From: Rhodospirillaceae bacterium
GTDB lineage: Bacteria; Pseudomonadota; Alphaproteobacteria; UBA8366; Aestuariispiraceae
Direction of reading: 5' to 3'
NCBI GenBank assembly: GCA_002709955.1
Contig: PAQY01000022.1
Coordinates: 62,001-126,000 of the forward strand
Length of the DNA: 64,000 nt
Below the pieces are notes generated by a model. It saw only the letters and a list, made by a program, of their open reading frames with translations, did no database searches and had not been told where the DNA came from. Numbering within the stretch: the stretch's first letter is position 1; the number at the start of each line of letters is the position of its first letter. Positions 2,255 through 63,877 of the stretch are shown here, piece after piece. The translations under genes and the position numbers were made by a program.

Positions 2255-3268
2255 ATGACCGTCGCGTCTGACATGCCCGCACCCGATCTTGTCGCGCTGG
2301 TCCATCAATTTTTAGCGGATCGCGATTCGACGTGGAGCATTGCATCCTTTGGTGCCATCGCTGAATTTCATAGCGACGGGACGCCCATGACAGTCGAAAC
2401 GCAGGATCGCGGCGGGGAGATAATATCCGAAAGCGGTGGTTTGCGTATCGCCTTGACCTGCGAAACACAATTCATTCCCTACGAAATCCTGTCCAAACGA
2501 CAGGCCTATTGGATGCAGGGCGGTAACTTCTGTTTACCCAAGGACCGCGCCGCCCGGCACAGAAGAACAACACTGACCGAATTGGGTCCAGACAGCCAGG
2601 CCCTGCGAAAACAGGATTCAGACGGCATCCTGTTTGATCTGGGTCTTGGTCTGGAATGCGTAACCACCATGGTGCGCATTCTTGATGCCGACCTGATCAA
2701 GCAATTGCGAGAATTTGAGGGTGAGGCCCTTCTGACTCCAAACGGTCATGGGCATGATGCCTTCGCCCTTTTGATTCAGGAAAGCCCACACCGGGTGTTC
2801 GAAAGTCAGCTGGGCCGTGTCGAAGTATATTCCCCGATTCCAACCCCGGATGGTGATACCGGTACAGGCTGTCACACCCATATCCTGCCAGACCTGCTGG
2901 CGGCTGGCCAAACCCATTCCGCCAATGTGCCCATGCCTGATGGTCTGCGCCCCTGTCTGCAGCTTTTTCCACCCAACCCGATCCTGACAAAAGGCGGCGA
3001 CGCGCGCCCTTCCTTAAATCGCGAGCGATTTGAGATGTTTCAACACCTGTTGCATCGCTATGGCCTACCCGACCTAGTTGCTGCCAAGAAACTGGCCCGG
3101 CTTGGTGTCGGGAATGGCAATACCCCGCCTGACAGCAATACCTTCAGCCGATCAGAACGAACCGCCATTCGCATTGCCCTGCGCCAGATGTCCTATGACA
3201 CCCCAGACAATCCTTATCTTGTGCAATGGAGATCTGCCTTTGAACCGCAAATCCATCAAGATCAATAG
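2255..3268 (+). CDS. Conserved-looking protein of unknown function
   Basis: This gene encodes a 337-residue soluble protein that I do not recognise. It has no signal peptide, membrane segment or known catalytic motif. The start ATG at 2255 follows GGGGAGAG with good spacing. Visible features are a Cys/His-containing segment (GTGCHTH, about residues 206-212) and a Gly/Asp-rich middle. It runs toward the radical SAM gene, with 19 nt between the two stop codons. Upstream is the divergent thi riboswitch region. Codon use looks like the neighbours, so it is probably a real chromosomal gene. No function is proposed. Confidence 0.72.
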   Translation: MTVASDMPAPDLVALVHQFLADRDSTWSIASFGAIAEFHSDGTPMTVETQDRGGEIISESGGLRIALTCETQFIPYEILSKRQAYWMQGGNFCLPKDRAARHRRTTLTELGPDSQALRKQDSDGILFDLGLGLECVTTMVRILDADLIKQLREFEGEALLTPNGHGHDAFALLIQESPHRVFESQLGRVEVYSPIPTPDGDTGTGCHTHILPDLLAAGQTHSANVPMPDGLRPCLQLFPPNPILTKGGDARPSLNRERFEMFQHLLHRYGLPDLVAAKKLARLGVGNGNTPPDSNTFSRSERTAIRIALRQMSYDTPDNPYLVQWRSAFEPQIHQDQ

Positions 3269-3287: not shown

Positions 3288-4400
3288 TCAAAGCAGGGAC
3301 AATTGCGCACTGGGCTTTCGCGGTGGGGTGAAGGCCGTGCAATCCATCATCGCCAAAGTCCTGCGATCCAGGCCTAGTTTTTTACGGGCCAATTTCATGC
3401 GCGTTGCGATCATATCCGCATAGGGGCCCGTACCGCGCATCCGTTCCCCGAAGTTGGATCGATACAATTGCCCCCCGTGGCTTTGGCGGATCAGGGACAG
3501 GACCCGTTCGGCGCGGTCTGGCATATGGGTTGCCAGCCATTCCTTGAACAAATCCTCAATTTCCAGCGGCAGGCGCAACAAGACATGCCCTGCCGATGTC
3601 GCCCCAGCCGCTGCGGCGCGGCTTAAAATCTCCTCAATCTCATGATCATTCACTGCCGGAATGATCGGTGCGACCAGCACACCGGTCGGAACCCCGGCGT
3701 CACTGAGCCTGCGGATTGCTTCCAGGCGTTTCTCCGGCGTGCTGGCCCTGGGTTCCATCTTATTGGCAAGGCCCCGGTCCAGTGTCGTGACCGACAGCAT
3801 GACCCGCGCCTGATTGGCCTGCCCCGCCGGGGCGATCAGATCCAGGTCCCGGCAAATCAGGGCATTCTTGGTGACAATCGAAAAAGGATGCGAACAGTCC
3901 CGCAGGACCTGCAACAATCCCCGCATGGCAAAAGTTTCGCGCTCTACCGGCTGATAGGGATCCGTATTGGTGCCAAAGGCAATGGGACCACAGCGATATT
4001 TGGGTCGGGCCAATTCCGAAGTCAGCAATGCGGCGGCATCAGGTTTCCAGAACAGCCTGGTTTCAAAATCCAGTCCCGGTGACAGGCCCAGATAGGCATG
4101 GGTTGGTCGGGCAAAACAATAGACGCATCCATGCTCACATCCCCGATAGGGATTGATGGACCGGTCAAAGGGGACATCCGGGCTGGTATTGCGGGTAATC
4201 ACACTGCGCGCGGCATCAATTCCCAATTGCGTGCGCAGACGGGGCCGGTCGCCCAGATCCTCTTCCAACAGCCAGCCATCATCAATGCGGGCCCGCTGCT
4301 GCCCCTCAAACCGGCCAGACCGATTGGAGACGGATCCACGCCCCTTTATGGGCCGGTCCGGCAATATACTGTCATCGCTTTCTGTCCATGCTTTCGTCAT
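3288..4400 (-). CDS. PA0069-family radical SAM protein (SplB-like)
   Basis: This is a radical S-adenosylmethionine enzyme whose substrate is unknown. The 4Fe-4S binding CxxxCxxC motif is present at about residues 88-95 (CEHGCVYC), followed by FARPTHAYLGLSPG, which is typical of the PA0069/Rv2578c group related to spore photoproduct lyase. Further family features are FGTNTDPYQPVE and the SVTTLD segment. The frame is open from 4472, but the ATG at 4400 (MTKAWTESDD) gives the usual length of about 370 residues. It stands alone as a transcription unit. A DNA-repair or modification role is often guessed for the family but is not shown here. Confidence 0.88.
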   Translation of the reverse strand: MTKAWTESDDSILPDRPIKGRGSVSNRSGRFEGQQRARIDDGWLLEEDLGDRPRLRTQLGIDAARSVITRNTSPDVPFDRSINPYRGCEHGCVYCFARPTHAYLGLSPGLDFETRLFWKPDAAALLTSELARPKYRCGPIAFGTNTDPYQPVERETFAMRGLLQVLRDCSHPFSIVTKNALICRDLDLIAPAGQANQARVMLSVTTLDRGLANKMEPRASTPEKRLEAIRRLSDAGVPTGVLVAPIIPAVNDHEIEEILSRAAAAGATSAGHVLLRLPLEIEDLFKEWLATHMPDRAERVLSLIRQSHGGQLYRSNFGERMRGTGPYADMIATRMKLARKKLGLDRRTLAMMDCTAFTPPRKPSAQLSLL

Positions 4401-4591
4401 GGCGTAAGGTATAGGGTAAAAACGGGAACAAATAAACAAAATTCTCATTATGTTCTGATTTGAAATCCACACAATTTCCCTGAAATACGCGGCAACACCT
4501 GTTGCGAGTGACTGCGCATCTTCTTACAGTATCCGACAGGCCGGATCATACAGATCGCCGCAGCAGGATAGTCACGGTTAGGACGCACCGC

Positions 4592-4978: not shown

Positions 4979-5566
4979 CTATCGCTGACCGTCGCCAACG
5001 CTGATCTGATCCTGGGTCAGCCCCCCCATGCGAGCATGAATGCGTCCCCCATCAGCCATGGCGATGACAAACATCAACTCCCTGGCACGTGGCGCATCTG
5101 GAACAAATACAGTGACCGTGGAAAAATGACTGCGCACATAGGCCGCGTTGATATGGTGCAGTGGGACATCTAGTTGCGTGCCTGGCACCCCCATTTTCTT
5201 GCTGGATGGAACAATGGCCTTTGCTGAGCCCAGCAAGCGGCGCATGGCATATCCCCCCGGCACATGCCACAGCGCGCCGTGTTCCAATTCACCGTCCATC
5301 CCGACCAGCGATCCTTTGCCATAGGCTTCAACCGCTTCGGGCGGGCAGCCCAAGGTCTGGCGCAAGGCGTCGGCCATTTCGTCCCCCATGGGCTTCAAGG
5401 CTTCCATCCCCGCTTCCAGATCCGCGACATAGCCACCAGCATAAGGATTGGCAACAATGGCTGCAGCCCAGGCAACGACCAGGGGGCGATCCGGGACAGG
5501 GCCAAATTCATGGCGGATTTCTTCCCGATGGGTCACCAGTTTACGGATTGGAAATGTTGGGGTCAT
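4979..5566 (-). CDS. Amino acid synthesis family protein (PF06684-like)
   Basis: This 195-residue protein resembles the family named amino acid synthesis, a label with no firm biochemical meaning. Recognisable segments are RPLVVAWAAAIVANPYAGGY near the N-terminus, the YGKGSLVGMDGELEHGA stretch in the middle and a C-terminal GGRIHARMGG. It is the last gene of a five-gene coupled operon; its ATG at 5566 overlaps the UPF0280 stop as ATGA. Co-occurrence with a nicotinate-type reductase and a molybdenum hydroxylase suggests a step in heterocycle breakdown. That role is inferred from neighbours only. Confidence 0.85.
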   Translation of the reverse strand: MTPTFPIRKLVTHREEIRHEFGPVPDRPLVVAWAAAIVANPYAGGYVADLEAGMEALKPMGDEMADALRQTLGCPPEAVEAYGKGSLVGMDGELEHGALWHVPGGYAMRRLLGSAKAIVPSSKKMGVPGTQLDVPLHHINAAYVRSHFSTVTVFVPDAPRARELMFVIAMADGGRIHARMGGLTQDQISVGDGQR

Positions 5567-6423
5567 GCGGAAACCTCCTCAAGGAATTTTGATTGCGGCA
5601 AAGGGCCAATGACGCGGCTTTGCCCCTGTAGAGATAAATAGGCTGAATCGATCAAACCTGCCTGATGATAACGCCGCGCCAGGATTGCGCCCTGGGCCAG
5701 GGCCCCGGCACAAACAGCAGGCGGCAAAGCCCCTACGGCAGTTGTGACCAGACGATCCCCCAGATCACTGTCTGGATCCAATTCGTTGGCGGGTTTCTTT
5801 TGAATGGCTGGATGATCCCAGGTCACGGCATTGGCGATCAGTGTGGCTGCTGCATCCGCTGCTGCCGCCGAATGGGCCAGAACGGTCACAGAATCCGCAA
5901 TACCCAGGGAGAAGGACCGCCCCCCCTGACCGCTGGTCGCGATCCCCCGCACGGCGCTGGTCGATTGAATGGTTGCCATCGCGACCGCTTTAGGGGCCTG
6001 AACTGTGTCAATAATCCCGATATCCATCGCCTGCCCAGGTTCCAGATAGAGCGCGATATCACCGCCATTATTGACATAAGCGCGCGTCAGAGGGGCCACC
6101 GTGACCATAGCCTGGAGCATATGATCGGCAACAGATCCAGCCACGGCTGCCATTGGTGTAATGAATTGGCTGCGGGCAAAGGGGCGACAGGCACGGGCCA
6201 TGCGCTGTGCAATCGGCCCTTTAAACGGCCCCTCCCCCGATTGGCGCAGTCTGGGTAGTTCCTGGACCAATCCCGGCAACACATCGACAAAGACATCTAC
6301 CGCCGCATGATATGCCAGCTCAACCGCTTGAACGTCGCCGAAAGCCTGGATGATCAGATCAATGGGGCCATGCTGCAAATGCAGACGATTGCCCGACAAG
6401 CGCGCACTGATGGGCCCGGACAT
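5563..6423 (-). CDS. UPF0280 family protein (ApbE-like fold family)
   Basis: This encodes about 286 residues. Alanine/glycine-rich segments such as MAAVAGSVADHMLQAM and YVNNGGDIALYLEPGQ are typical of UPF0280, a family generally grouped with the flavin transferase ApbE. The frame can begin with TTG at 6429, overlapping the upstream stop (TTGA), but ATG at 6423 has GGGGGA at better spacing and is preferred. It is coupled to the downstream amino-acid-synthesis gene (ATGA). It lies directly after an Fe-S reductase whose characterised relative is a flavoprotein, so a flavin-attachment role is possible but unproven. Confidence 0.86.
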   Translation of the reverse strand: MSGPISARLSGNRLHLQHGPIDLIIQAFGDVQAVELAYHAAVDVFVDVLPGLVQELPRLRQSGEGPFKGPIAQRMARACRPFARSQFITPMAAVAGSVADHMLQAMVTVAPLTRAYVNNGGDIALYLEPGQAMDIGIIDTVQAPKAVAMATIQSTSAVRGIATSGQGGRSFSLGIADSVTVLAHSAAAADAAATLIANAVTWDHPAIQKKPANELDPDSDLGDRLVTTAVGALPPAVCAGALAQGAILARRYHQAGLIDSAYLSLQGQSRVIGPLPQSKFLEEVSA

Positions 6424-6425
6424 CC

Positions 6426-7949
6426 TCAATCCCCCCGCTTTTGAATGGGGGAAAGAGGCCAGGGGTTTTCTGGTGACCAGGGTGACATACGTATTTCCGA
6501 CTTGGATTGAGCCAGGCTTTCCAGGGATGTGACGGACGCCATATGTCCGCCCAGCCGTTCAAAATCCACCAGGGGCAAGGTAAATTCCAGGGGCGCGACC
6601 AGGGCCGGGGTGGGCACGGACCCGAAACTGTTTTCCGGCATGCGCAAGACATCGACCATGACGGTAATGCCCCCGCCCGGCCAGACATAACAGGGTGCAC
6701 CGCCCATAGTGACCCGGGTCAGACTGTCCTGCACCGACCGCGTCAGCCGCACTGGGTTTTCCGTAACACCCGCCCGCAGGCTGCCCCCCGCACCGGCTAC
6801 AAAGACGACCGAGCATAGGGCGGGTTCGCAGTTTTCTGCGATACGATCCACCACGATCTGCAAAGGGGCGGGCATAGGCTGTATTTGCGGCACCAGGTCG
6901 TTATCCAATTCACAATACAGTGAATCTTCCCCCGTCGTACTGACCAGCAACAGACGCAATCCAGGCCAGGCTTTCTTTGGGTCGATCTTCTGGATGATCG
7001 ACAGGGGATCGGTGATATTCGTGCCCCCCCAGCCTGATCCTGGCTCTGCGACCTTAAAATACCGTCCTGGCGTTGACTTGCGGCCCTGAACACGGATGCC
7101 TGCGGGTTCCATGCCCAAATAGGCACCCGCCTGGTGTTCACTTAAAACGCCGGTGATATGGTCATCGACGACGATCACCTCATCAACATGACCATGCCAT
7201 TGCTGGGCAAAGATCCCAATTGTCGCCGACCCGCACCCAACACGCATGCGTTCTTCCCGTTTGCCGTCGATAACAGGGGCCTGACCAGCCTGAATATTGA
7301 TCTGTGCGCCACCCTGGATTTCGAAATCAACAGCATTTTTATTACATAAATTAAGCATTGATTCACAGGTTGCGATGCCTTCCTTTTTCGACCCGCCGGT
7401 CAAATGCCGAACGCCGCCAAGGGATAGCATCTGGGACCCATATTCCGCCGTCGTCACATGACCAACAGGTTCCCCGTTATACAATACGCTGGCCTGTTCC
7501 GGGCCGATATGACGGTCGGTATCAATCTTCACCTTGACCGAACAATAGCTAAAGATGCCCTCTGTCACGACGGTGACCGTATCCACGCCCTGCCACTGCC
7601 CCGATACGATAAACGGGGCGGGTTTATAGTCTGGATAGGTGGTCGTTGCCCCAATACCCGAAACAAAGACCGGGGACTGGCTGGTCAATTTCCCATCCCA
7701 GGGCGCATCCCCTGCCAGAAATGGAACAAGCGCGCCATCTTCTGCCTCCACCGTCTGGCTCATCAAAACCAGGGGATCGGTCCGCACAAGGGTTCCGCCG
7801 TGATTGGCATAGCGATCACAGGCCCCGCTGCGCCCGTCCCGAATGCGGCACAGCACCGGACAGGCATCACAGCGAATGATATCCCCGTCCTTATCGGAAG
7901 TATCTATCGCTTGGGCTTCGACAGCAGGCGCGATGCGGGTTTCAGTCAT
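6426..7949 (-). CDS. 6-hydroxynicotinate reductase-like iron-sulfur protein
   Basis: This 507-residue protein resembles proteins annotated as 6-hydroxynicotinate reductase, after the enzyme of Eubacterium barkeri nicotinate fermentation. The N-terminus has a cysteine cluster CxxCPxxCRIxxGxxGxC (Cys 27, 30, 34, 44), suited to an Fe-S cluster. A central GCGSATIGIF and a WGGTNITDPL segment are visible. The ATG at 7949 overlaps the molybdoenzyme stop by 8 nt; the frame is open to 7979. Neighbours (molybdenum hydroxylase upstream, UPF0280 and amino-acid-synthesis downstream) suggest ring reduction after hydroxylation. The actual substrate is unknown. Confidence 0.82.
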   Translation of the reverse strand: MTETRIAPAVEAQAIDTSDKDGDIIRCDACPVLCRIRDGRSGACDRYANHGGTLVRTDPLVLMSQTVEAEDGALVPFLAGDAPWDGKLTSQSPVFVSGIGATTTYPDYKPAPFIVSGQWQGVDTVTVVTEGIFSYCSVKVKIDTDRHIGPEQASVLYNGEPVGHVTTAEYGSQMLSLGGVRHLTGGSKKEGIATCESMLNLCNKNAVDFEIQGGAQINIQAGQAPVIDGKREERMRVGCGSATIGIFAQQWHGHVDEVIVVDDHITGVLSEHQAGAYLGMEPAGIRVQGRKSTPGRYFKVAEPGSGWGGTNITDPLSIIQKIDPKKAWPGLRLLLVSTTGEDSLYCELDNDLVPQIQPMPAPLQIVVDRIAENCEPALCSVVFVAGAGGSLRAGVTENPVRLTRSVQDSLTRVTMGGAPCYVWPGGGITVMVDVLRMPENSFGSVPTPALVAPLEFTLPLVDFERLGGHMASVTSLESLAQSKSEIRMSPWSPENPWPLSPIQKRGD

Positions 7950-10701
7950 TCTGCACAGCCTTAATCGCCGCCAATACACGATGGGGCAGCGCTGGCACCT
8001 GGGTTATACGCGCGCCTGTCGCATGACGTATCCCCCCCAGAATTGCAGGCGCTGTTGGAATAAGCGCAGGCTCCCCAATCCCCTTTGCGCCAAACGGCCC
8101 TTCCGGATCTTCATCTTGGATCAGGATACACTCAATTTCAGGCATATCACCAAAAGTGGGGATAAGGTAATCGTGTAGGTTTTCTGTCCGCCCCGGCAGA
8201 TATTCCTCCATCAGGGCAAGACCCAACCCCTGAGCAATGCCGCCATGGATCTGTCCCTCTACCAGCATCGGATTGATCGCGGTGCCCACATCATGGGCCG
8301 CAACCATGCGCAGGACCTTGACCGTGCCCAGTTCAATATCCACGGCCACTTCAGCAATCTGTGCCGCGTAGCCATAGGAGATATAGGGAATACCCTGGCC
8401 GTCCGAATCCAGCGCGGTTGTCGGCGGATCATAGGTCCCTTGACCTTCCAGCACCATTCCGGCCTGATCCACAGGAAGGGATGCCAGATCCAGATGGCGC
8501 ACGCTGCCATCCTTTTCTTCAATAATCAGTTGGGGTCCGTCTGGAATGATCTGCGCTTCAGGCCCTGCATTACAATGCCGCAGTATTTCTGCCCGCAAGG
8601 CTGCCCCAGCCGCCTGCGCTGCGCGCCCGGAAACCAATGTCTGGCGCGATGCAGAGGTCTTCCCCGCATCCTGAGTCAAATCCGTATCCCCGACCACCTG
8701 ATGCAACAGATCAACGGATATCCCCAGCGCATCGGCACAGATCTGGGGCATGATCGTATAGCTGCCCTGACCAATATCCACCGCCCCGTTATACAGGGTA
8801 AAGCATCCTTTCTGATCCAGCGTCACACGCATTTTGGACGGGTTGGACATGGATGTATTGCCGCAACCATACCACATGCAGCCAATGCCCACGCCATGAC
8901 GGATGGGGCCCCTTGTCGTCTGGTTAAAGCCTTCCGCCGCCGCGCGCCAGTCACGCCAAGCGGGAGCAACAGCTTCAAGACACTGCACCAATCCGGCCGA
9001 CGCCCCCAAAACCTGACCCGTGGCTGTCGTATCGCCCGGTCCGATAGCGTTCTTTAGGCGAATTTGCAGGGGGTCCAGGTGCAGCTGTGCGGCCAGATCA
9101 TCCATCAGTGTTTCGGTCGCAATGGCGGCCTGGGGCACACCAAACCCCCGAAAGGCACCAGAGGGTGGATTGTTACTGTGCAGCGCGCGACTGGTCGCCA
9201 AAACATGGGGAATGCGATAGGGGCCGGTGGCGTGAACCGGCACCCGCCCGGCAACCGTCGGGCCCCAGGACGCATAAGACCCGGTATCAAAATCAGCACG
9301 GAAGACCATGGACCGTAACGTCCCATCCGCCTCTGCCGCTAGGGAGGCCTGAACAATGGCGGGATGACGTTTTGTGCTGGCCCGCATGGAATCTGGGCGC
9401 GAATAGACCGTGCCAACGGGCCGCCCCAAAATCCAGGCCGCAACCGCAATAATGGGCTGCACCCCCACATCCAGTTTGCCGCCAAACCCGCCCCCACAGG
9501 TCACCGGCACGATGCGCACGGCATCGTCTGAAATGCCCAGAACATCGCGCACTTCTTCCTTGTCCATATAGGGGGCCTGGGTGGAGGCATAGACTTCGAT
9601 CCGATCCCCAACCCGTTTTGCATAGCCAGCCTCGGGTTCAATATAGGCATGTTCGACAAAGGCAGTTCTGAAACCGCCACGGGCAATCGCCGGGGCATCA
9701 GATAATGCAGATACGGCATCCCCACGGGCCACGCGTCCCCGGATCAGCGTGTTTTTCTCTGCCTGGCCGGGATGTAATACCGGCGCATCGGGATCACAGG
9801 CCATTTCCATACTGGTAATGGCTGGCAGGACATCCCAATGGATCGGCAGGTCGGAATCCGGCAGGGCTTCAATCGTTTCCCGGTCTCCAACCAACGCGAT
9901 CACAGCATCGCCGCGATACAGGACCCGGCCGTCTGCCAGAACCGGCTGGTCCTTGATATGGGGATAGATCCCATAGCCATTGCGCCCTGGAATATCCGAT
10001 GCTGTAAGGATGCGCTGCAATCCAGGCCATGCCTTATAGACTGGTGCAAAATCCCCCAGCGTGAAATTCGCATGGGCATGCGGTGACCGAACGACCCGCA
10101 ACCACAGGCAATCGCTGGGCCATCCATCTGCCCCATAATGCTGTGTCCCATCCAGTTTATGGGCTGTATCCAGGCGCAACAGGCGTGCCCCGACAGCATG
10201 ACCTGCAATCGGTTCAATGGGATCCGCCCCACCGGTAACATCCAGAACGGCATCGATTATTTTAACATAGCCCGTACAGCGGCACAGCACGCCCCCCAGT
10301 GCATCCATCACCGATTGTCGACTGGGGGGGCCAGGCTCATGGCGCAGCATATCCATCGCGGCCATCAACATACCGGGCGTACAAATTCCACATTGCGCCG
10401 CCCCGTGTCGGTCGAACGCGGCACGCAATCGCACCAGCATCGGGTCATTCGATTCCGCCGCTGTTTTGATTTTCTGCCCGGCTGCTTGTCCTGCGGGCAC
10501 AAGGCAAGAGCAGACCTGCTGATCGTCCAGCAGGACCGTGCAGGCCCCGCAATCCCCAGCATCACAGCCAACCTTGACCGAAGTAACGCCGCACTGATCC
10601 CGCAAAACCCGGCTTAGGCGCTGCCCTGGTGACCCTGCAATCTGATGAACAACGCCATTGATCGTCAGGTCCAGTGTCTCTGTCATCGTGATATCATTCA
10701 T
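7942..10701 (-). CDS. Fused 2Fe-2S/molybdopterin subunit of a xanthine dehydrogenase-family hydroxylase
   Basis: This 919-residue protein joins two usually separate subunits. Residues 1-155 form the 2Fe-2S part, with ligands at Cys 46, 51, 54 and about 64, and the second cluster CGIC (103-106) plus CRC (139-141). The rest is the molybdopterin domain with GGGFGGK, GAFRGFGVPQ and, near the C-terminus, KGIGEPAL carrying the catalytic Glu. Such enzymes hydroxylate N-heterocycles or aldehydes. The ATG at 10701 overlaps the FAD-subunit stop (ATGA) and is preferred over the frame's open end at 10722. It is the second gene of the operon. Confidence 0.92.
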   Translation of the reverse strand: MNDITMTETLDLTINGVVHQIAGSPGQRLSRVLRDQCGVTSVKVGCDAGDCGACTVLLDDQQVCSCLVPAGQAAGQKIKTAAESNDPMLVRLRAAFDRHGAAQCGICTPGMLMAAMDMLRHEPGPPSRQSVMDALGGVLCRCTGYVKIIDAVLDVTGGADPIEPIAGHAVGARLLRLDTAHKLDGTQHYGADGWPSDCLWLRVVRSPHAHANFTLGDFAPVYKAWPGLQRILTASDIPGRNGYGIYPHIKDQPVLADGRVLYRGDAVIALVGDRETIEALPDSDLPIHWDVLPAITSMEMACDPDAPVLHPGQAEKNTLIRGRVARGDAVSALSDAPAIARGGFRTAFVEHAYIEPEAGYAKRVGDRIEVYASTQAPYMDKEEVRDVLGISDDAVRIVPVTCGGGFGGKLDVGVQPIIAVAAWILGRPVGTVYSRPDSMRASTKRHPAIVQASLAAEADGTLRSMVFRADFDTGSYASWGPTVAGRVPVHATGPYRIPHVLATSRALHSNNPPSGAFRGFGVPQAAIATETLMDDLAAQLHLDPLQIRLKNAIGPGDTTATGQVLGASAGLVQCLEAVAPAWRDWRAAAEGFNQTTRGPIRHGVGIGCMWYGCGNTSMSNPSKMRVTLDQKGCFTLYNGAVDIGQGSYTIMPQICADALGISVDLLHQVVGDTDLTQDAGKTSASRQTLVSGRAAQAAGAALRAEILRHCNAGPEAQIIPDGPQLIIEEKDGSVRHLDLASLPVDQAGMVLEGQGTYDPPTTALDSDGQGIPYISYGYAAQIAEVAVDIELGTVKVLRMVAAHDVGTAINPMLVEGQIHGGIAQGLGLALMEEYLPGRTENLHDYLIPTFGDMPEIECILIQDEDPEGPFGAKGIGEPALIPTAPAILGGIRHATGARITQVPALPHRVLAAIKAVQND

Positions 10702-11567
10702 GCGGCAACACCCATGCGACATTTCAAGGCAAGTGCGTTCAACAATCGCACCACAAGGATCCGCGCCGCCTCTCGCCGATACGCGGCACTGGCCCGGGGA
10801 TCATCAATGGGATGCAAATCAGAAAAATAAGGATCCGTCACAAACTGTGAGAAATCCACATCCAGAGGCAACCCAACAAGTGCTGCCTCCAACTCTGACA
10901 GTCTTTTCGCAACGGCTGAACATGCACCAACCGCCAGCGACACTGACGCGATCCTGCCGTCAGATGTCGGGACTAATATTCCAGCCACCATTGCAATGGA
11001 AATCACCAAATAATGCCTGGCCCCCAATTTAAGGAACGCGCTTTGTGCCATCGGGTCTGGTTTCGGGATCATCAGTCCGGTCACAATCTCCCCGGGTTTC
11101 AGCACTGTCTGGCGGTAACCGGTGATAAAATCCTGCAGGGCGACTGACCGCTCCCCCGTTGGGCCGGCGACGACCACCCGGCTGTCCAATGCCACTAGCG
11201 GCGAAATGCCATCCGCGGCTGGGGATGCATTGCATATATTGCCAGCCACGGTGCCGCGATTCTGGATCTGTACCCCGCCCACCTGACCGGACGCGGCCTT
11301 CAGCGCCTCAAAGGCGGGTGGTAAATTCGCACGCCTTATATCCGACCATGTCGTGGTCGCACCAATCCGGATACCCTGCGCCTCTTCCGTAATACCGCGC
11401 AATGCATCAATTCCGGTTATATCCAGAACAGGAACAGCAGGCGCCGGGGCGACACGGGCGGGGAAAAAATCCGTACCACCACCCAAAATGGTCAGGGTTG
11501 GGTCTTTCCGAAGGCAATCAATCGCCTGTGGAACCGTCGTCGGCCTGTGATAATTTCCAATGCTCAT
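10698..11567 (-). CDS. FAD-binding subunit of a molybdenum hydroxylase (CoxM/XdhB-like)
   Basis: This 289-residue protein carries electrons from the 2Fe-2S centres to the acceptor through FAD. Typical signatures are LGGGTDFFPA (FAD pyrophosphate loop, about residues 30-40), IGATTTWSDI, VGGVQIQNRGTVAGNICNASPAAD (FAD-binding, about 100) and KLGARHYLVIS. The frame is open to 11663; ATG at 11567 (MSIGNYHRP) matches where this family begins and has GGATGGGG just upstream. It is the first gene of the operon, and a palindrome-like element lies about 46 nt upstream of the start. Confidence 0.9.
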   Translation of the reverse strand: MSIGNYHRPTTVPQAIDCLRKDPTLTILGGGTDFFPARVAPAPAVPVLDITGIDALRGITEEAQGIRIGATTTWSDIRRANLPPAFEALKAASGQVGGVQIQNRGTVAGNICNASPAADGISPLVALDSRVVVAGPTGERSVALQDFITGYRQTVLKPGEIVTGLMIPKPDPMAQSAFLKLGARHYLVISIAMVAGILVPTSDGRIASVSLAVGACSAVAKRLSELEAALVGLPLDVDFSQFVTDPYFSDLHPIDDPRASAAYRREAARILVVRLLNALALKCRMGVAA

Positions 11568-59237: not shown

Positions 59238-60107
59238 GTGTCATTTTCCATCGAAAAAAAAGTGATCGGAGCCTTTGTTGCGTTGATATCACTGACCGGT
59301 TGTTCCCCTTTGGGGTTTTTCAATGCCGTTGTTCCCTATGATCAGGGCAGTGAACAGGTCGCCCAGGACATCGCCTATGGGGATGATCCCAGACACAGGC
59401 TAGATATCTATGCCCCAAGCGACCGGGCACAGGGAAAAAAGCTACCAACAATTGTCTTTTTCTATGGCGGCTCCTGGAAGACCGGTCAAAAAAATCACTA
59501 TGAATTTGCCGGGCGTGCATTGGCCGCCTTGGGGGCGGTTGTGGTGGTAGCAGATTACCGTCTGGTACCAGATGTCCGGTTTCCGGATTTCATCAAAGAC
59601 AATGCCGCCGCCGTCGCCTGGACACAGCAACAGATCGATCAATATGGGGGGGATCCGAAACGGGTCTATCTGGCCGGACATTCGGCCGGGGCTTATAATG
59701 CGCTCTTATTGGGATTGGACACACGGTATCTGAAAGACGCTGGCGCTGTTCCGGGGGATATCGTCGGATTGATCGGTATTTCCGGCCCCTATGATTTTGA
59801 CCCAAAGGAATACAAGGTCACGCGAGACGCCTTTGCAGGCTCTCTGGATGACCCGGATGTGTCACCGGTCAAATTTGTCAGTGGCGATACGCCCCCCACA
59901 TTGTTGTTCCATGGGGAGGATGATAGGACGGTCCTGCCAAAAAACACGCGCGTTCTGGCCGCGGCCCTGACTGAGGCGCAACGCCCGGCGGAAACGCATT
60001 TCTATCCCGATCTCAGCCATGCCGACACGGTCCTGGCACTCAGCACCCTTTTGCGTGGCAAGGCCCCCATCCTGGACGAAATCAAGCGCTTCATTCAGTC
60101 ACCGTGA
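59238..60107 (+). CDS. Alpha/beta hydrolase lipoprotein (carboxylesterase-like)
   Basis: This encodes about 289 residues. A signal sequence ends in lipobox LTGC (Cys22), so it is probably a membrane-anchored lipoprotein. The hydrolase core has FFYGGSWKTG (oxyanion region), GHSAGAYNALLL with nucleophile Ser, FHGEDDRTVLP (acid) and DLSHADTVLA (His). GTG at 59238 was chosen because AAGGA lies at suitable distance; TTG at 59232 is also in frame. Its 3' end overlaps the convergent hyuB by 17 bp. The substrate is unknown. Confidence 0.85.
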   Translation: MSFSIEKKVIGAFVALISLTGCSPLGFFNAVVPYDQGSEQVAQDIAYGDDPRHRLDIYAPSDRAQGKKLPTIVFFYGGSWKTGQKNHYEFAGRALAALGAVVVVADYRLVPDVRFPDFIKDNAAAVAWTQQQIDQYGGDPKRVYLAGHSAGAYNALLLGLDTRYLKDAGAVPGDIVGLIGISGPYDFDPKEYKVTRDAFAGSLDDPDVSPVKFVSGDTPPTLLFHGEDDRTVLPKNTRVLAAALTEAQRPAETHFYPDLSHADTVLALSTLLRGKAPILDEIKRFIQSP

Positions 60108-61776
60108 CCGGAAACAGGCGCGCGACCTCTTCCGGGCTGTAATATCCTTTTCGGATATCATCTTGAACCATCTTTGGGTCCCGACGGGCTGGATTACCGT
60201 AACCACCGCCACCTGGTGTGCAGACATCAATCACATCGCCGGGCCGCACGGTGATGTCCTGTTCTTTGGACAGGTGCAGGGGTGTATGGGTGCTGCCATC
60301 CTTAAAGTCGAAGCGGACGGTATTCGCGCCGCCTTCTGATCCATTCAGCGCCCCTTGCGGCCCCGTGCGCCCATGGTCCATAACCATGGAAGCCCGTGCC
60401 TCCCCCCGGCGTACGCGTACGCGATAGTTGATGCCAAACCCGCCGCGATGCTGGCCAGCGCCGCCCGATCCTTCGGCCAGAGCATAACGTTCAAACAAAA
60501 CCGGGTAATACTGTTCTAGAACCTCAATTGGTTGGGATTTTGAAATCCCGATGGTGGAGCAACCATTGGTCAATCCATCGCCGCCTGCATGGCCCCCATA
60601 TCCCCCGCCGGAGATAACATACATGACATAAGAGCGCTGCTTGTCCGGGTCATAGCCGCCCAAAGCAAAATTGCCGCTGGACCCGGCGGGTGCGGCGAAT
60701 AATTGATCCGGGATCGCCTTGGTCAGTGCGGCAAACACCGCCTCTGCAATACGCTGGGAAACCTCCGCCGCACAGCCTGAGACGGGGCGGGGATATTCCG
60801 CATAAAGAAAGGTGCCCTTGGGATCGATGATCTTTAATGGCGCATAGGTGCCTGCATTCAGGGGCACATCCGGAAAAATATGCTTGATTGCCAGGTAGAT
60901 GGACGATCGCGTGGTCGCGATTACACTGTTCATCGGGCCACGACAGGGGGGCGAAGATCCGGCCATATCAAAGGTCATTTCATCGCCTTTGACCGTGATC
61001 TGCATGGCGATTTTCAGGGGTTCATCAACGACACCGTCGGAATCTACAAAGGCTTCCCCTGTATAAACGCCATCTGGCACATCCGCGATGGTGGCCCGCA
61101 TCAGGCGTTCGGCCCTGGCCCGCAATTCCGCAATCGCTTGTGCGACGGTATCGCGTCCATATCGATCCAACAGGGCGGTCAGGCGTTTGTCCCCGATCTT
61201 TAAGGCCGCCGCCTGCGCCTGGATATCGCCGATGCGTTGATCGGCGATGCGGATATTGGATTGAATGATCGCCAGGATTTCCGGATCCAATACCCCTTGC
61301 TTGAACAGCTTCACCGGGGGGATGCGCAACCCTTCCTGCTCCACCTCTGTCGCGCGAGCGGAAAAGCCACCGGGCACCATACCGCCGGTATCGGGCCAGT
61401 GGCCAGTATTGGCCAACCAGCAGAACAATTCGCCCTGATAAAAGAACGGTCGATAGAAGCGCACATCCATCAAATGTGTGCCACCCAGATAGGGATCATT
61501 GCAAATAATCACATCATCCGGCTGTGGATCAGAAACCCGCTGAATAACCGCCTGGGTGCCATATTGCATTGTCCCGACAAAAACGGGCAGCCCAAGATCC
61601 CCCTGGGCGATTAAGGCACCATCCTCTGCGGCATAAATCCCATCAGACCGATCCATCGCCTCCGCGATCACAGGTGAAAAGGCCGCACGGCAAAAGGCCA
61701 GATCCATCTCGTTACAGACCTGTTGCAAGCCGTTCTGGATTACGCCCAGCGTGATGGGGTCAATTTCTGTCGTCAT
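60091..61776 (-). CDS. hyuB: Hydantoinase/oxoprolinase B subunit
   Basis: This encodes a 561-residue subunit of an ATP-dependent N-methylhydantoinase or 5-oxoprolinase-type amidohydrolase. ITLGVIQNGLQQVCNEMDLA, IICNDPYLGGTHLMDVRF and GGGGYGNPARRDP are family signatures. ATG at 61776 overlaps the hyuA stop (ATGA). The two subunits are separate, unlike eukaryotic oxoprolinase. Substrate specificity within this family (hydantoins, oxoproline, acetophenone carboxylases) cannot be read from sequence alone. Confidence 0.93.
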   Translation of the reverse strand: MTTEIDPITLGVIQNGLQQVCNEMDLAFCRAAFSPVIAEAMDRSDGIYAAEDGALIAQGDLGLPVFVGTMQYGTQAVIQRVSDPQPDDVIICNDPYLGGTHLMDVRFYRPFFYQGELFCWLANTGHWPDTGGMVPGGFSARATEVEQEGLRIPPVKLFKQGVLDPEILAIIQSNIRIADQRIGDIQAQAAALKIGDKRLTALLDRYGRDTVAQAIAELRARAERLMRATIADVPDGVYTGEAFVDSDGVVDEPLKIAMQITVKGDEMTFDMAGSSPPCRGPMNSVIATTRSSIYLAIKHIFPDVPLNAGTYAPLKIIDPKGTFLYAEYPRPVSGCAAEVSQRIAEAVFAALTKAIPDQLFAAPAGSSGNFALGGYDPDKQRSYVMYVISGGGYGGHAGGDGLTNGCSTIGISKSQPIEVLEQYYPVLFERYALAEGSGGAGQHRGGFGINYRVRVRRGEARASMVMDHGRTGPQGALNGSEGGANTVRFDFKDGSTHTPLHLSKEQDITVRPGDVIDVCTPGGGGYGNPARRDPKMVQDDIRKGYYSPEEVARLFPVTVTE

Positions 61777-63815
61777 GCTGCCAACCCTCCAGGTCCGACA
61801 TGGACTATCATATTGCCGATCTCGTCCACCTCAACCCGCATGCCCGGTGCCAGAACGGTTGTTGTATCCATCTGTTCGACAATGGCGGGGCCAGTCAGTT
61901 GCGTTCCAGGGGTAAGGGTCGACCGTTGCAGGATCGGGGTCTTGGTCCACCCCCCCTCTTCAAACCAAACCGGTCGGCTTTCCGGGTGCATTTCTGGGGA
62001 CACAGGATCCAGTAACAGGCGCAAATCCACCTGCTGGCGAATACCAATGACTGCGGTATTCAGATTGACCAGATTGGCTTTGATCTCCGGCAAGGACACC
62101 TCGAATCGTGCCCAATAAACCGCTTCAAACGCTGCCTGCAAATCTTCTCTGGAAATGGCAGGGTCGGCAATGGGCACAGACAATAGGTGACTTTGCCCGA
62201 TGAATTGCATGTCGGCCCTGTGGATCACCCGGACCTCTCCGGTACCACCGCCATCCCGGTCCAGACGCGCGCGCCCTTCAGTGATTTGCGCTTCAAATAT
62301 ATCCCGCACCGAGCCCATATCGACACTGGCCATCGGTTTATTAATCGTGTTGACGAAGTCGTGGCGCAAATCCGCAACCGCACAGCCCAGGGCATTCGTG
62401 ATGCCGGGCCGCGCCGGGATCAGCAGCGTTGGAACGCCCAATTCCCGGGCGATAGCACCGGCATGCAATGGACCCGCCCCACCAAAGGCGAAAAGTGAAA
62501 AGTCCCTTGGATCATGGCCACGGCTGAGCGATACCATACGCACCGCACCCGCCATGCGATCATTGGCGATACGCAGAATAGCGGCCGCCGCATCCTCCCA
62601 GGACAGGCCCAAAGGATCCCCGATAACCTCCCCAATCCGGGCCTGTATTGCCGTGATGTCACGTGCCCCCTCCACCGCCAGCAGACGCGCTGGATTCAGG
62701 CGACCCAACACCAGATTGGCATCTGTGATCGTTGGCTGGGTACCGCCGCGCCCATAACAGATGGGGCCTGGCTGTGCCCCGGCACTTTCTGGACCGACCT
62801 GCAGCAAGCCGCCTGCATCAATGCGCGCAATGGATCCACCGCCAGCCCCAATGGTGTGAACATCAACCATGGGCACATGGACCGGCATGGCATATTCGAT
62901 TTCCAGCTCGCTGGAGACCTGTGGCGTGCCATCCTTGATCAAGCCAACATCACAGGATGTTCCGCCCATATCAAAGGTAATCAGATTTTCCCGACCCGAC
63001 ACGCTGCCGGTACGGGCCGCGGCCATAACGCCAGAGGCCGGGCCGGACATGACCGTATTGACCGCCAGTTTGGAAATCGCTTCTGCCGAAACCGTGCCGC
63101 CATTGCCCTGCATCACCAACAGGTCCTTTGTATAGCCACGCTGTGACAATCCCTTGGTCAGGCGCGCCAGATAGCGTTCCAGAATGGGCTGGACGGCGGC
63201 ATTCACTGCTGCTGTCACACCCCGTTCATATTCACGAAATTCCGACAAAATCTCATGCCCCGCCGTGACATAGGCGTTGGGCCAGACCGACAGGGCAATT
63301 TCCTTTGCCCGCTTTTCATGGGTTGGATCGGTATAGGAATGCAGGAAATGGATCAGCAGAGACTCGCACCCCTCCGCGACCAAGGTTTCTGCGGCCCGCT
63401 TCACGGCCGCTTCGTCCAGCGCGATGACGACATTGCCATCCACATCCATACGTTCTGGCACTTCCAGGCGCAGATTACGGGGGATCAGCGGTGTGAAACT
63501 GCCAGTCAGACCATAGGCGCTGGGCCGTGTGCGCCGCCCCAGTTCCAGAATATCCCGGAACCCCGCTGTTGTGATCAGCCCGGTCTTGGCCAGTTTCCGC
63601 TCCAACAGGGCATTGGTTGTTGCCGTCGTGCCATGCACCAGGCTGTCCAGGGCGGCAATATCCACCTGGGCCTTATCCAGGGCAGCCAGGACGCCTTCCG
63701 ATTGATTGGCGACTGTTGTTGGAACTTTCGCAATACGCGCACTGCCCGTCGCTTCATCCAGGTAAATCAGGTCTGTGAAGGTTCCCCCAACATCGCAGCC
63801 AACAATCTTCGCCAT
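61773..63815 (-). CDS. hyuA: Hydantoinase/oxoprolinase A subunit
   Basis: This is the 680-residue ATP-binding subunit, paired with hyuB. The N-terminus GCDVGGTFTDLIYLDEATGS is the actin-like phosphate loop. VHGTTATTNALLERK, TFDMGGTSCDVGLI and AFGGAGPLHAGAIARELG are strongly conserved in the family. ATG at 63815 has GAGGAA upstream; the open extension to 63836 is unlikely. A palindrome-like element at 63878-63895 lies 63 nt upstream and resembles the one before the molybdoenzyme operon. Confidence 0.93.
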   Translation of the reverse strand: MAKIVGCDVGGTFTDLIYLDEATGSARIAKVPTTVANQSEGVLAALDKAQVDIAALDSLVHGTTATTNALLERKLAKTGLITTAGFRDILELGRRTRPSAYGLTGSFTPLIPRNLRLEVPERMDVDGNVVIALDEAAVKRAAETLVAEGCESLLIHFLHSYTDPTHEKRAKEIALSVWPNAYVTAGHEILSEFREYERGVTAAVNAAVQPILERYLARLTKGLSQRGYTKDLLVMQGNGGTVSAEAISKLAVNTVMSGPASGVMAAARTGSVSGRENLITFDMGGTSCDVGLIKDGTPQVSSELEIEYAMPVHVPMVDVHTIGAGGGSIARIDAGGLLQVGPESAGAQPGPICYGRGGTQPTITDANLVLGRLNPARLLAVEGARDITAIQARIGEVIGDPLGLSWEDAAAAILRIANDRMAGAVRMVSLSRGHDPRDFSLFAFGGAGPLHAGAIARELGVPTLLIPARPGITNALGCAVADLRHDFVNTINKPMASVDMGSVRDIFEAQITEGRARLDRDGGGTGEVRVIHRADMQFIGQSHLLSVPIADPAISREDLQAAFEAVYWARFEVSLPEIKANLVNLNTAVIGIRQQVDLRLLLDPVSPEMHPESRPVWFEEGGWTKTPILQRSTLTPGTQLTGPAIVEQMDTTTVLAPGMRVEVDEIGNMIVHVGPGGLAA

Positions 63816-63877
63816 GTGTTCCTCGACGTTTTCCAATATGAAAATTCAGCCTGACAGCAGACCAGCACGCGGTCAAT

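Follow-up and report, generated by a model that had tools for sequence, protein, structure and literature searches.

The window analysed here, a 64,000-nucleotide stretch of a Rhodospirillaceae bacterium (contig PAQY01000022.1, positions 62,001 to 126,000), carries a five-gene operon that, judged from sequence and gene context, most likely encodes the enzymes that attack the ring in reductive nicotinate catabolism. The pathway is known from Eubacterium barkeri and Azorhizobium and is not itself new. Our analysis suggests that the operon is a real and widely conserved catabolic unit of this route, in a variant with a different ring-opening enzyme and two families of unassigned function. We consider it probable that the operon works together with a hydantoinase-type gene pair (HyuAB) in the same window, the ring being opened by this ATP-driven enzyme instead of by enamidase, and the UPF0280 protein serving as a maturation partner of the 6-hydroxynicotinate reductase-like protein (HnR). 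Gene content, gene order, homology and linkage are what the data give directly. The host genome comprises 4.23 Mb in 24 contigs, and the genes concerned are the following.

10698..11567, minus strand: FAD-binding subunit of a molybdenum hydroxylase (Pfam FAD_binding_5 and CO_deh_flav_C)
7942..10701, minus strand: fused [2Fe-2S] and molybdopterin subunit, proposed nicotinate 6-hydroxylase (dehydrogenase) (Pfam Fer2, Fer2_2, Ald_Xan_dh_C, MoCoBD_1/2)
6426..7949, minus strand: HnR-like Fe-S (flavo)protein, proposed 6-hydroxynicotinate reductase (homology to annotated genes)
5563..6429 (TTG start) or 6422 (ATG start), minus strand: UPF0280 / COG2122 protein, ApbE relative, proposed HnR maturation factor (NCBIfam NF003322; 2O34)
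4979..5566, minus strand: PF06684 (DUF1185, 'AA_synth') protein (Pfam; solved relatives 3BYQ and 2QTP)
61773..63836, minus strand: HyuA, hydantoinase/oxoprolinase subunit A, proposed ATP-dependent lactam ring-opener (Pfam Hydant_A_N, Hydantoinase_A, Hydant_A_C)
60091..61776, minus strand: HyuB, subunit B of the same enzyme (Pfam Hydantoinase_B)

Conservation of the operon and its likely substrate

The five genes run on the minus strand from 11567 to 4979 and, by their open reading frame coordinates, overlap at every junction, as a preliminary description of this DNA had reported. The overlaps are, in gene order, 4 nucleotides (ATGA), 8 nucleotides, 4 nucleotides (TTGA) and 4 nucleotides (ATGA). 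The TTGA overlap holds only with the TTG start of UPF0280 at 6429; an alternative ATG lies 7 nucleotides further on, at 6422. The operon genes encode the FAD, [2Fe-2S] and Mo domains that define a molybdenum hydroxylase of the XDH family, and HyuAB has the Hydant_A_N, Hydantoinase_A and Hydantoinase_B domains of the hydantoinase/oxoprolinase family.

The arrangement of the five genes is not due to chance, since its members recur across 42 loci found through HnR (32 loci plus 10 of the 26 matching plasmid records). UPF0280 is present in 40 of the 42, a PF06684 gene in 35, and 29 have both the FAD and the Mo/Fe-S genes. Of the same loci, 23 contain a LIV-type ABC transporter, 26 a MarR regulator and seven a ferredoxin-NADP reductase. 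The counts rest on identity thresholds and 35% coverage chosen after inspection of the neighbourhoods, a locus from which a query was taken is counted by virtue of its own sequence, and some loci are truncated by contig ends. The three enamidase-type queries, compared afterwards, are 65-89% mutually identical. The FAD subunit is 44-91% identical to genes next to HnR in related loci. The two loci lacking UPF0280, L038 and L053, belong to genomes that carry it elsewhere (all six genomes searched gave a match; that of L053 as two match pieces).

We also examined 98 related genomes, which overlap with the 42 loci since L035 and L036 come from the same genomes as G004 and G002, respectively. HnR was found in 26 and UPF0280 in 26; both occur in 25, adjacent in all 25, and 71 genomes have neither (Fisher 5e-21, ignoring kinship). 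The only genome with HnR alone is G040, with the gene at the end of a 3-kb contig, and the only one with UPF0280 alone is G016, where a gap of 100 N adjoins the gene. These counts follow the removal of weak HnR matches in G036, G038 and G095 (29 to 26 genomes) and of a UPF0280 match in G051 (27 to 26; E 1.4e-4), a 272-aa frame without the GGD segment. Of the 27 genomes that have HnR, UPF0280 or both, 23 contain PF06684; so do 11 of the other 71, hence it has further roles. The co-occurrence proposed earlier as a check on the gene set thus stands for HnR, UPF0280 and the ring-opening enzyme; PF06684 also occurs in those 11 genomes without HnR.

Some related loci depart from the common layout. 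Three Belnapia loci (L049, L056 and L066) have HnR, UPF0280, enamidase and transporter and no FAD/Mo hydroxylase within 10 kb on either side, unlike Belnapia L042 and L052. The FAD subunit gene of a same-genus metagenome-assembled genome (MAG) was matched in two pieces (L036:6422-7271), possibly a frame break by sequencing error or in a pseudogene. The nicotinate clusters of L058, L068, L069 and L073 share a Rieske oxygenase (of the VanA_C type in L069). Nicotinate clusters with the LivK/H/M transporter type repeatedly have next to it a conserved protein of ~457-487 aa without Pfam match (L067:4734-6197, L071:14900-16273, L038, L074 and L079); the copies of L067 and L071 share 36% identity.

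We propose that the third gene of the operon encodes a homologue of 6-hydroxynicotinate reductase, since 26 plasmid records contain genes 62-66% identical to it, 17 of them annotated under that name. Neither Pfam nor NCBIfam gives a match for it at E <= 0.001. Four cysteines (C27-x2-C30-x3-C34-x9-C44) are invariant in 29 aligned rows, and an R-x-GCGSA segment is conserved in all 62 HnR matches compared (rows with stops or short cover were skipped); we considered this segment as a flavin or cluster site, and the evidence points neither way. We claim no fold for HnR, because its AlphaFold model from 29 rows is poor (mean predicted local distance difference test 69.0, predicted template modelling score 0.58) and the top VIA-align match, of the GcvT type, has a Z of 3.7 over 67 residues, which is too weak. 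The best hit of the HnR profile among solved structures (E 0.048) was judged to be chance, and a Pfam GCV_T_C match (E 0.0042, below its cut-off) was not used. At L055:10001-11443 the HnR translation has one stop codon; this MAG also has enamidase and two PF06684 genes.

The neighbours of HnR point to nicotinate as the substrate. An enamidase-type amidohydrolase is linked in 28 of the 42 HnR loci. For three of these proteins (L069, L070 and L074) the best solved match is the enamidase 2VUN, at E 1.2e-106, 2.4e-111 and 1.8e-105, and among the matches shown (for L070, those at E <= 1e-10) nothing else is better than 5e-7. The remaining 25 are 52-76% identical to the L070 protein, L039 and L041 being the lowest. 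NicAB-type genes replace the FAD/Mo genes in three loci (Neorhizobium L067, Comamonadaceae L070 and Paracoccaceae L076); two of these three sets carry the annotation nicotinate dehydrogenase, and the large subunits show 50-53% mutual identity.

In the first step proposed from this context, the FAD plus [2Fe-2S]/Mo enzyme would hydroxylate nicotinate to 6-hydroxynicotinate. By homology, the HnR-like protein would then reduce 6-hydroxynicotinate to 1,4,5,6-tetrahydro-6-oxonicotinate, its low-potential electrons probably coming from NADPH through a ferredoxin-NADP reductase like those beside hnr elsewhere. The preliminary description had suggested this order, Mo-dependent hydroxylation followed by Fe-S ring reduction, and the enamidase and NicAB neighbours support it well; its suggestion that the pathway might be undescribed is not borne out, and the variant lies in the ring-opening step. 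The E. barkeri fermentation (3HRD, HnR, enamidase 2VUN) would share the first two reactions, with homologous families; the Mo subunit is fused to [2Fe-2S] here and split into NdhL and NdhM there, as described in PMC10331938. The cluster reported for SG-6C, Azorhizobium caulinodans and other proteobacteria, Bradyrhizobium among them, covers the first three steps according to PMC3511419 and also includes an ABC transporter and two uncharacterised conserved proteins. The present genome differs from it in that no enamidase was found, no ABC transporter is linked and HyuAB lies nearly 50 kb away.

Two further genes of the window were noted. One encodes a DUF6925 protein (2255-3268; E 1.9e-90), close to a thiamine phosphate synthase gene, and the other a PA0069-family radical SAM protein (3288-4472; NF033668, over its cut-off).

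Enamidase and the proposed role of HyuAB at the ring-opening step

The operon and its flanks in the window contain no enamidase, no LIV transporter set and no MarR-type regulator (a LIV set was not sought elsewhere in the genome). The preliminary description had noted the lack of a transporter and an enamidase, which is right for this region; it missed a likely ring-opening enzyme in the same window, the HyuA/HyuB pair at 60091-63836. Its identity to the HyuA/HyuB genes located after hnr in Neorhizobium is 61-62% (HyuA) and 65% (HyuB). The earlier statement that the route differs at ring opening is correct in substance, with HyuAB as the candidate enzyme. A search of the whole genome with the L070 query found no enamidase at E <= 1e-60, a threshold at which the same query matched 3 of 98 genomes and which leaves a distant enamidase possible. 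The L069 query gave no match at E <= 1e-20 either, which proves little since none of the 13 genomes searched with it gave one.

HyuA of one particular clade and enamidase appear to exclude each other. Near hnr, enamidase occurs in the 28 loci given above and HyuA of this clade in 7 of the 42, with both in none and neither in seven (Fisher 1.3e-4). The seven loci with neither are L035 and L036, which are from the same genus and have HyuA elsewhere in the genome, the short contigs L040, L051 and L065, and L038 and L053. L073 has enamidase together with a HyuA of another clade (44%). The 27 genomes with HnR and/or UPF0280 divide into 21 with the HyuA clade (at least 59% identity), three with enamidase and three with neither; none has both. 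Among the other 71 genomes, that HyuA is found only in G019 and enamidase in none; a HyuA of 53% identity in G053 was dropped from the count (23 to 22). The association of a ring-opener (HyuA of the clade or enamidase) with HnR/UPF0280 genomes has a Fisher value of 1.5e-18, again over the 98 genomes and ignoring kinship. Nine of the 21 genomes with this HyuA have it within ~10 kb of the operon; in the other 12 it lies elsewhere.

The phylogeny unites the operon-near and the detached copies. In a tree of 41 HyuA rows both kinds, the window's copy included, form one clade of 27 (100/100), and 14 rows fall outside it, some with long branches, among them five other copies from the window genome. 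The window HyuA groups with the copy of G012 and with that of G007, a genome in which HyuAB sits next to the operon (100/99). The window sequence is represented in the tree by its duplicate L089. L098 and L101 are operon-near copies despite their label 'far'; rows L120 and L118, identical to them, were removed as duplicates. The tree takes in five of the six other HyuA matches of the window genome; a partial one on contig C1 was left out.

HyuAB appears to replace enamidase as the lactam ring-opener, by the mutual exclusion and the phylogeny. It would open the ring of tetrahydro-6-oxonicotinate with ATP as the third step. The closest solved relatives of HyuA are N-methylhydantoinase and then 5-oxoprolinase (7HK5, 6YRA), which have the HyuA and HyuB domains in common with HyuAB. 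These are ATP-dependent cyclic amide hydrolases, so the opening of a six-membered lactam by HyuAB is chemically reasonable. HyuAB differs from them in forming a separate clade tied to HnR loci, with a six-membered unsaturated lactam as its predicted substrate, and it is of another family than the E. barkeri enamidase. A hydrolytic opening of tetrahydro-oxonicotinate is described in PMC9304392. Among the papers listed by our literature searches, none was seen to connect hydantoinase/oxoprolinase with the opening of tetrahydro-6-oxonicotinate.

Possible roles of UPF0280 and PF06684

UPF0280 is a distant relative of the ApbE FAD:protein FMN transferase (PF02424). The window protein matches 2O34 (profile E 8e-14) and has no match to Pfam ApbE at E <= 10, the level at which 15 of 26 UPF0280 members match (best 1.3e-6); the ApbE model retrieves the UPF0280 gene of G016 over its cut-off. 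An hhalign comparison of UPF0280 with 11 ApbE sequences gave 95.3% and E 2.4e-8 over the C-terminal half, with 0.2% for a control pair, and left the N-terminal half unaligned. UPF0280 keeps ApbE-like GGD, TSG and ADAxAT segments. The ApbE loop H..D...G (H228, D231 and G235, invariant in the 11 ApbE rows), whose His we take to be catalytic, is gapped in UPF0280 in the profile alignment. The motif [ST]GA[ST], presumably the ApbE target, occurs in only 1 of the 62 HnR sequences, within the last few residues near the C-terminus. A search for ApbE in 39 genomes covered 18 that have HnR and/or UPF0280; 12 of these, among them the window genome, lack it and the other six have one.

We favour, by a modest degree of confidence, UPF0280 as a dedicated HnR maturase derived from the ApbE flavin-transferase fold, given its near-perfect linkage to HnR and this homology. 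That it attaches flavin to HnR is doubtful, and the lack of the loop and the rarity of the acceptor motif in HnR speak against ordinary ApbE chemistry. The preliminary description had left the small proteins to act either on a cofactor or on the ring-opened product; the cofactor or maturation role is now preferred for UPF0280, and PF06684 is undecided. A competing explanation with a serious claim, though short of an even one, is that UPF0280 handles sulfur, as a trafficking or persulfide protein of the kind proposed for methanogen COG2122, and serves the Fe-S or sulfur chemistry of HnR instead of flavin attachment. The missing loop and the nearly absent acceptor motif fit this explanation, while the retained ApbE-like segments speak against it, as does the E. 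barkeri HnR, which reportedly (Alhapel 2006) has a covalently bound flavin. The sulfur explanation also draws on PMC5764234, which reports that COG2122 is genetically required together with DUF39 for homocysteine synthesis in Desulfovibrio, and on PMC12068725, where MA1715 is termed a sulfur trafficking protein. PMC5764234 also states that the distant kinship of COG2122 with ApbE does not extend to the flavin-binding region. The COG2122 proteins of homocysteine synthesis (MA1715, DvMF_0044) are of the same family as UPF0280 and likewise tied to one redox or sulfur enzyme (PMC5764234); here the partner is HnR, and unlike in those systems DUF39 had no match in the window genome or in 249 sampled Pseudomonadota.

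The PF06684 protein is a clear member of its family (219 bits against a Pfam cut-off of 27), and its model, poor at the C-terminus, reproduces the known fold (Z 25.5 to 3BYQ and 21.1 to 2QTP), adding nothing decisive. A second PF06684 gene of the same genome lies in a set (L003:8190-14085, genome G000, contig C12) with an alpha/beta hydrolase, a flavin reductase, a luciferase-like monooxygenase, an aldehyde dehydrogenase and a divergent LysR gene. By its gene make-up the set looks like a trigonelline (N-methylnicotinate) degradation cluster. Both the nicotinate and the trigonelline route have an enamide intermediate and are expected to yield a 2-formyl diacid or a semialdehyde. Tentatively, this is the point where PF06684 acts; its most likely role would be to act on this product or to help its oxidation. 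According to PMC7913881, TgnF of trigonelline degradation, a homologue of the DUF1185 protein HcdD, stimulates the TgnE-dependent oxidation of succinic semialdehyde, and a like effect was sought for HcdD and not seen by the authors. The name 'amino acid synthesis' given to PF06684 is probably a misnomer, since the second copy stands in a trigonelline-like cluster; the 2010 account (PMC2954203) bases it on fold similarity and on neighbours in branched-chain amino-acid metabolism and transport.

Competing explanations and implications

Several observations weigh against the proposed nicotinate route. Among solved structures the Mo subunit scores highest to aldehyde oxidoreductases (387 and 361 bits), then to 4-hydroxybenzoyl-CoA reductase (267) and to the nicotinate dehydrogenase chains of 3HRD (253 and 250), hence the substrate is named by context and nicotinate is a prediction. 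No uptake system is linked to the operon in this genome, and HyuAB is at the distance given above. L038 and L053 carry HnR with neither ring-opener in view, and G029, G032 and G039 have neither at the thresholds used (completeness 88, 65 and 64%). In G019 (L097), which gave no match for HnR or UPF0280, a HyuA of the nicotinate clade is present, as a relic or for another use, and three HyuA matches (G023, G031 and G070) have one in-frame stop each. The exclusion of enamidase and HyuA could partly be a lineage effect, most enamidase loci coming from a few related genera.

These points bear on three alternatives to the proposed route. The first, an ordinary operon for a xanthine/aldehyde oxidoreductase joined by unrelated hitch-hiking genes, would agree with the solved aldehyde oxidoreductases and the XDH-family equivalog models that match the Mo subunit; every listed model falls below its cut-off and the FAD plus Mo/Fe-S genes recur in the 29 HnR loci, which makes this highly improbable. 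The operon could instead act on another N-heterocycle or nicotinate derivative, such as a substituted pyridine or an intracellular breakdown product of nicotinamide, with the same three-step chemistry. Unlike many relatives the window operon has no LIV transporter or MarR-type regulator beside it, and most hnr-linked Mo subunits from other families share 51-61% identity with its Mo subunit. We still hold this to be quite unlikely, as HnR is 62-72% identical to the copies in loci with enamidase or NicAB, the gene order is the same and HyuA belongs to the same clade. Unlikely too is an explanation in which HyuAB serves another amide (hydantoin, 5-oxoproline or a carboxylation) and an unrecognised hydrolase, perhaps PF06684, opens the ring. 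It gains from the 12 genomes with detached HyuAB, from N-methylhydantoinase being the closest solved relative of HyuA, and from a weak likeness of the PF06684 model to barbiturase 5HY1 (Z 5.3) and Rid proteins (Z 6.1). Z values below 8 are within the range of common arrangements, and we rejected the Z 5.3 match, which stands amid many unrelated rows, as evidence that PF06684 is a single-domain relative of barbiturase/cyanuric acid hydrolase. PF06684 is also present in 26 of the 28 enamidase loci, hence it is not an enamidase substitute, and HyuA excludes enamidase and co-occurs with HnR.

We speculate further that UPF0280/COG2122 may found a class of ApbE-fold, cofactor-installing maturases, each for one Fe-S redox enzyme (HnR here, the DUF39 protein in homocysteine synthesis), with the covalent flavin bond of HnR made by non-ApbE chemistry, and that the distinct HyuAB clade is an ATP-driven 'tetrahydro-oxonicotinase' replacing enamidase in many Alphaproteobacteria. 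We regard this combined proposal as clearly less likely than not.

If the proposed route is correct, the ring-opening step would be filled for bacteria whose nicotinate cluster has no enamidase, and a hydantoinase clade lacking an assignment would gain a substrate. COG2122 is linked to homocysteine synthesis in methanogens as well, and the pairing of HnR with UPF0280 in ordinary alphaproteobacteria, several of which lack ApbE, would be a simple and testable setting for its function. The 'amino acid synthesis' name of PF06684 may stem from LIV-type transporters that actually serve N-heterocycle catabolism. Two long-unexplained families, UPF0280 and PF06684, would thus be tied to the nicotinate pathway and become testable in a defined setting.

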